Below are positions 29,002-29,376 of a DNA stretch of 43,137 nucleotides, one piece after another (positions within the stretch are counted from its first letter, which is position 1; each line of letters starts with the position of its first letter). The stretch is taken from NCBI GenBank assembly GCA_902805565.1, contig CADCTP010000128.1, positions 1 to 43,137 on the forward strand, read 5' to 3'. The notes below the pieces were generated by a model. It ran no database searches. It saw only the letters and a program-made list of their open reading frames with translations, and had not been told where the DNA came from. The position numbers were made by a program, and so were the translations under genes. The DNA is from an uncultured Mycobacteriales bacterium. Lineage in GTDB: Bacteria; Actinomycetota; Actinomycetes; Mycobacteriales; CADCTP01.

Positions 29002-29082
29002 TGCGGTCTCCCGGGGGAAGGAGGGGGTTGGTCCGGGATGCGGCGGCGGGTCGGGGGGTGACCCCCACCGCTCCGGGCGGGT

Positions 29083-29136
29083 CTAGGGCTCCGACCCCCG
29101 GACCCGGGTGCCGTCGACGTGGGCGGTGACGCGCGG
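29083..29136 (-). pseudogene. C-terminal tail of a lost second CBM3 cellulase
   Basis: The last 18 codons read APRVTAHVDGTRVRGSEP and stop at 29083, nearly matching the end of the intact cellulase ([18 protein letters not shown]). DNA similarity also continues about 10 bp past the stop. Just upstream lies GGAAGGAG, a ribosome-binding site without a start codon, and then the CebR/CelR box. So the control region and the extreme 3' end of a cellulase gene remain, with everything between removed. No other part of that gene is in the window. Confidence 0.75.
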
Positions 29137-29184
29137 GGCCCGGGGTGGACCCGTTCTCCTTCCGGTCGGCACGGACGGCGGCGA

Positions 29185-29198
29185 TGGGAGCGCTCCCA
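29185..29198. promoter_or_regulatory. CebR/CelR operator TGGGAGCGCTCCCA
   Basis: A perfect 14-bp palindrome identical to the known CebR (Streptomyces) / CelR (Thermobifida) operator; it extends to 16 bp with flanking A/T. It overlaps a possible minus-strand -10 (TAATGG, 29196-29201). Repression would be lifted by cello-oligosaccharides. It is the only copy seen in the window. Confidence 0.88.
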
Positions 29199-29376
29199 TT
29201 ACTGACCGGGTCATCTCTCCTCCTCGCTGAGGAACGCGAACAACTCGCCGAGAGGGCCGCCGCGCCCGGTCCGGCATCGACATTCCACGGGCCCGTGCCG
29301 CACGTGGACTGTCCGGTCGAAAGCCTCACTGGGCCGACGGCACCGTGTCAAGCCCTCGATCGGCTGTACGTCGCGT

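Follow-up and report, generated by a model that had tools for sequence, protein, structure and literature searches.

A 68-nt relic of a CBM3-enzyme gene between a CebR box and a GH9 cellulase gene, a possible footprint of a lost neighbouring cellulase

In cellulolytic Actinobacteria, CebR is known to repress genes of the CebR/CelR regulon and to be released by cellobiose (PMC5332605, PMC4898821), and in Streptomyces scabies the CebR boxes lie mostly 50–200 nt ahead of the start codon (PMC5332605). The locus described here resembles the regulon of S. scabies and Streptomyces sp. SirexAA-E in having a perfect TGGGAGCGCTCCCA box ahead of a secreted cellulase gene, and its genome carries further boxes ahead of cebE, LPMO, GH6 and GH5 genes. 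It differs from these systems in that the relic of a cellulase tail sits between the box and the gene, and in lacking the TTACA motif that 20 of 28 orthologous GH9 loci have 13–17 nt upstream of the box. The locus also recalls the gene relics left by deletion in tandem arrays, insofar as a short, unconstrained 3′ fragment with a stop codon lies beside an intact paralogue with the same tail; here, however, only 57 coding nt are left, and an intact parent was found in no genome searched. A third parallel is offered by CBM2-tailed neighbours in the Streptosporangiaceae (loci L054, L053 and L048), adjacent enzyme genes whose 3′ ends are near-identical as far as the stop, although both genes are intact there and the module is CBM2, whereas here one would have been reduced to a CBM3 relic.

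The window (the whole stretch of DNA analysed, a single contig of 43,137 bp with a GC content of 75%) belongs to the 4.64-Mb genome of an actinobacterium, a draft of 460 contigs. Its intact GH9 cellulase gene (26539–29001, minus strand) encodes a secreted protein of 820 amino acids with an internal and a C-terminal CBM3. Read along the minus strand, the gene is preceded by a perfect 14-nt palindromic CebR/CelR box (29185–29198; consensus from PMC5332605 and PMC4898821), the Shine-Dalgarno-like element GGAAGGAG (29156–29163), the 68-nt relic (29072–29139) and a 70-nt leader (29002–29071) with a weak Shine-Dalgarno sequence, GGGAG, ahead of the ATG. The initial annotation had named box, ribosome-binding site and cellulase tail in this order, and all three were found so arranged on the minus strand. 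A rhodanese-domain gene (26180–26464, minus strand) follows GH9, and the slot is bounded on the other side by a divergent gene whose family is not known (29469–30575, plus strand). At the far end of the window, 35939–43135 (minus strand) holds two very long reading frames that by reading resemble genes of polyketide-synthase type, within which the contig ends.

Bases 29139–29083 of the minus strand encode APRVTAHVDGTRVRGSEP followed by a TAG stop, the last 18 codons of a CBM3 enzyme, and the copy goes on beyond it for 11 nt, ending at 29072. Its source or partner is the 68-nt repeat at the 3′ end of GH9 (26528–26595, minus strand), with which it shares 62 of 68 nt (91%). The alignment scores 50, whereas none of 200 shuffles exceeded 17; this demonstrates homology and rules out chance similarity as the source of the match, and the piece is thus a true remnant of the 3′ end of a CBM3-enzyme gene. 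The near copy of the GH9 end described in the initial annotation amounts to 15 of 18 residues, and the repeat extends from 29139 to 29072, the 11 nt beyond the stop included. We consider it very improbable that the arrangement is an artefact of assembly, produced by collapse of a repeat-rich tandem. The draft does consist of 460 contigs and CBM tails are repetitive, but 6 of the 68 sites distinguish the relic from the GH9 tail, collapsed repeats would yield fused catalytic domains and not a short tail following a leader, and no repeat was seen at the upstream junction.

In a DNA search of this genome and that of its sister, the GH9 tail was the only match to the relic clearly above noise. With the tail of the sister's GH5-CBM3 gene as outgroup, the relic shares 12 sites with the GH9 tail and one with the GH5 tail, and four changes are found in the relic only. 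Three of these four alter residues (Y to H, W to R and T to S, including the W of the VWG motif), while the GH9 tail has a single change of its own, which is silent. From this pattern, either the relic and the GH9 tail parted within this lineage or homogenisation made them alike, and the relic appears to have drifted without constraint since then, the numbers being small (four relic-only changes against one). The match to GH9 breaks off abruptly at both ends, neither flank of the relic matches GH9 or GH5 above shuffles, and of the catalytic domain nothing is left.

These features bear directly on the main rival to a lost neighbour, in which local duplication or a template switch during repair copied 68 nt of GH9's own 3′ end into the leader and no gene was lost. 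This would account for the best genome match being the GH9 tail, including the TAG and the 11-nt flank, for the abrupt ends and for the lack of any further gene remnant, and it requires one event rather than two. On the other hand, the copied piece stops at the gene end and sits just behind a Shine-Dalgarno-like site at gene-start distance, and a different CBM3 enzyme does occupy the corresponding slot of the sister genome. We regard such a copy as possible but, on balance, doubtful. No other gene in the window was found to have its own tail copied upstream. In a tail-copy scan of 525 reading frames, the remaining matches, besides the same GH9 gene in locus L001, fell in relatives' loci; in the five of these that were aligned in detail, the gene upstream is intact and ends in a CBM2 tail of the same kind.

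The comparison within genus and family is with a single sister genome, one contig of which (C109) is colinear with the window at ~72–89% identity except that 26148–30618 is inverted. The inverted segment comprises the rhodanese gene, the cellulase slot and the divergent gene, and the flanks are otherwise colinear. At its left edge lies a sigma-factor-like gene (24801–25661, minus strand; ECF/SigJ-like by reading), and ~1.4 kb is missing from the stretch of C109 that matches this region. In the sister, the slot is bounded by the same two genes, the divergent one as a 71% identical orthologue and the rhodanese gene again downstream, and it holds one enzyme, a GH5 cellulase with a C-terminal CBM3; GH9 is absent from that genome. 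The C-terminal CBM3 of our GH9 and the CBM3 of the sister's GH5 are each other's closest relatives (support 100/99), and the CBM3s of Pseudonocardiales GH9 enzymes stand apart. Through this sisterhood, two different enzymes in one slot appear to share a CBM3 tail, as would be expected if both had stood there or if one had replaced the other. A precedent for tails shared between neighbouring genes is provided by the Streptosporangiaceae loci L054, L053 and L048, where adjacent glycosidases with different N-terminal (catalytic) parts have CBM2 tails that are near-identical over ~490 bp and run to the stop, likely a case of exchange between neighbours. The two tails of L054 lie at 8674–9166 and 10445–10940 of that locus.

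On the strength of the sister's GH5-CBM3 gene in the slot, the sisterhood of the two CBM3s and the near-identical tails of relatives, we take the best explanation, held with slightly better than even confidence, to be that the relic is the decaying 3′ end of a lost CBM3-tailed cellulase gene. Such a gene would have stood directly before GH9-CBM3 in the slot, and a deletion would have taken out almost the whole gene, beginning near its start and stopping 18 codons short of the end. The resemblance of the lost gene's tail to that of GH9 would stem either from exchange between the neighbours at this locus, or from the lost gene having been a copy of GH9. GH5 is our best guess for its catalytic family. 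By letter identity the relic was rejected as the orthologue of the sister's GH5 tail; the count of 12 sites to one in favour of GH9 means that a GH5 parent requires tail exchange. GH48 was also considered as the lost partner, given the order box-GH48-GH9-CBM2 in Streptosporangiales (GH48 named by reading), and was discarded: it ends in its catalytic domain, without a C-terminal CBM, and so would not leave a CBM3 tail.

Against a lost neighbour stand the lack of an intact tandem and of any catalytic remnant, the abrupt ends of the match and a Shine-Dalgarno-like site expected about one time in ten by chance. No intact CBM3/CBM3 tandem was found at the slot in the genomes searched, no second GH9-CBM3 gene with this tail among 20 order-level relatives, and no close GH9-CBM3 relative in plasmid records; in the slot of the one sister genome there is a CBM3 enzyme (GH5), whose tail is not the closest match to the relic. 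The initial annotation held that a tandem cellulase pair had evidently lost its first member, and proposed looking for two adjacent cellulase genes in relatives. A partner is plausible in view of the sister's slot, its CBM3 and the shared tails, but "evidently" goes too far, since the intact pair appeared in no genome searched and a partial duplication of the GH9 tail explains the same letters. The idea that the 68-bp direct repeats flanking GH9 act as a switch, by which recombination would drop GH9, leave box and tail behind and let the cellulase content of the slot turn over through repeat-mediated loss and gain, strikes us as barely tenable.

The box belongs to a regulon-like set. Exact copies of TGGGAGCGCTCCCA occur three times in the 4.64-Mb genome, against 0.06 expected from base composition, and five more sites have one mismatch; chance is excluded for the box, as it is for the tail copy. 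The other boxes mostly lie beside a cebE-like SBP gene, an LPMO10 gene, two GH6 genes and a GH5 pair. GH9 starts 183 nt after its perfect box, and other box-linked genes of the genome start 57, 68, 96, 154, 159, 189 and 213 nt after theirs, starts here having been assigned by eye and by Shine-Dalgarno sequence. In 22 GH9 loci, mainly of Lentzea, Saccharothrix, Umezawaea and Kibdelosporangium, a CebR box is located 21–97 nt before the GH9 start (median 33), from which GH9 genes of this type appear to own a CebR box. Read alone, the 183-nt spacing suggests that ~150 nt were added between box and GH9. Set beside the distances of 57–213 nt in this genome and of mostly 50–200 nt in S. scabies, however, it is ordinary, and no capture of a foreign promoter is needed to explain it.

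The initial annotation had placed GH9 under the cellobiose-responsive promoter of its lost neighbour, the first gene having owned the box and the deletion having brought GH9 under it. This capture step is not supported; it is a special case of the lost-neighbour explanation, with which its probability overlaps, and we rate it as rather improbable. The distance from box to Shine-Dalgarno-like site does have the geometry of a gene start (34 nt), and no second CebR box is present between the relic and the GH9 start (29002–29071). Yet the GH9-CBM3 orthologues of the Pseudonocardiales have a box of their own 21–97 nt upstream, boxes stand 57–213 nt before genes in this genome, and the GH5-CBM3 slot of the sister has no CebR box. 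GH9 most likely belongs to the CebR regulon in the ordinary way, judged by its box and by comparison with orthologues, and by analogy with the known system CebR bound at 29185–29198 would block GH9 transcription until released by cellobiose. The sister genome holds a single imperfect CebR-box match, near an alpha/beta-hydrolase-like gene, compared with eight boxes of zero or one mismatch here, which suggests that the sister lost the CebR regulon or never had it.

For understanding of the locus, the relic represents a small footprint of turnover, in which sister species have come to carry different CBM3 enzymes in one slot, and it hints that two cellulases once stood side by side. Should a closer relative prove to carry the intact pair, the loss of a gene could be dated and the exchange of tails between adjacent cellulases would be demonstrated. 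No new regulatory mechanism is added by the relic locus.

In its present state the relic is leader sequence, untranslated or negligibly translated, and probably without function. A start codon served by GGAAGGAG would fall ~34 nt from the box, close to the median of 33 nt for orthologous GH9 starts, and no ATG, GTG or TTG lies downstream of it at the usual spacing. Shine-Dalgarno-like cores arise in ~11% of shuffles of the 214-nt leader, so that GGAAGGAG alone is weak evidence. A 43-codon frame running from an ATG at 29214 through the box into the relic was set aside, since in GC-rich DNA chance could plausibly keep it open and it would begin upstream of the expected transcript start. Neither a transcript start nor, ahead of GH9 or of the box, a sigma-70 consensus promoter was found. 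A structured leader was likewise rejected, the predicted fold being no better than those of shuffles (z −0.9). In that predicted fold GGAAGGAG (29163–29156) is paired with its inverted copy CTCCTTCC (29027–29020).
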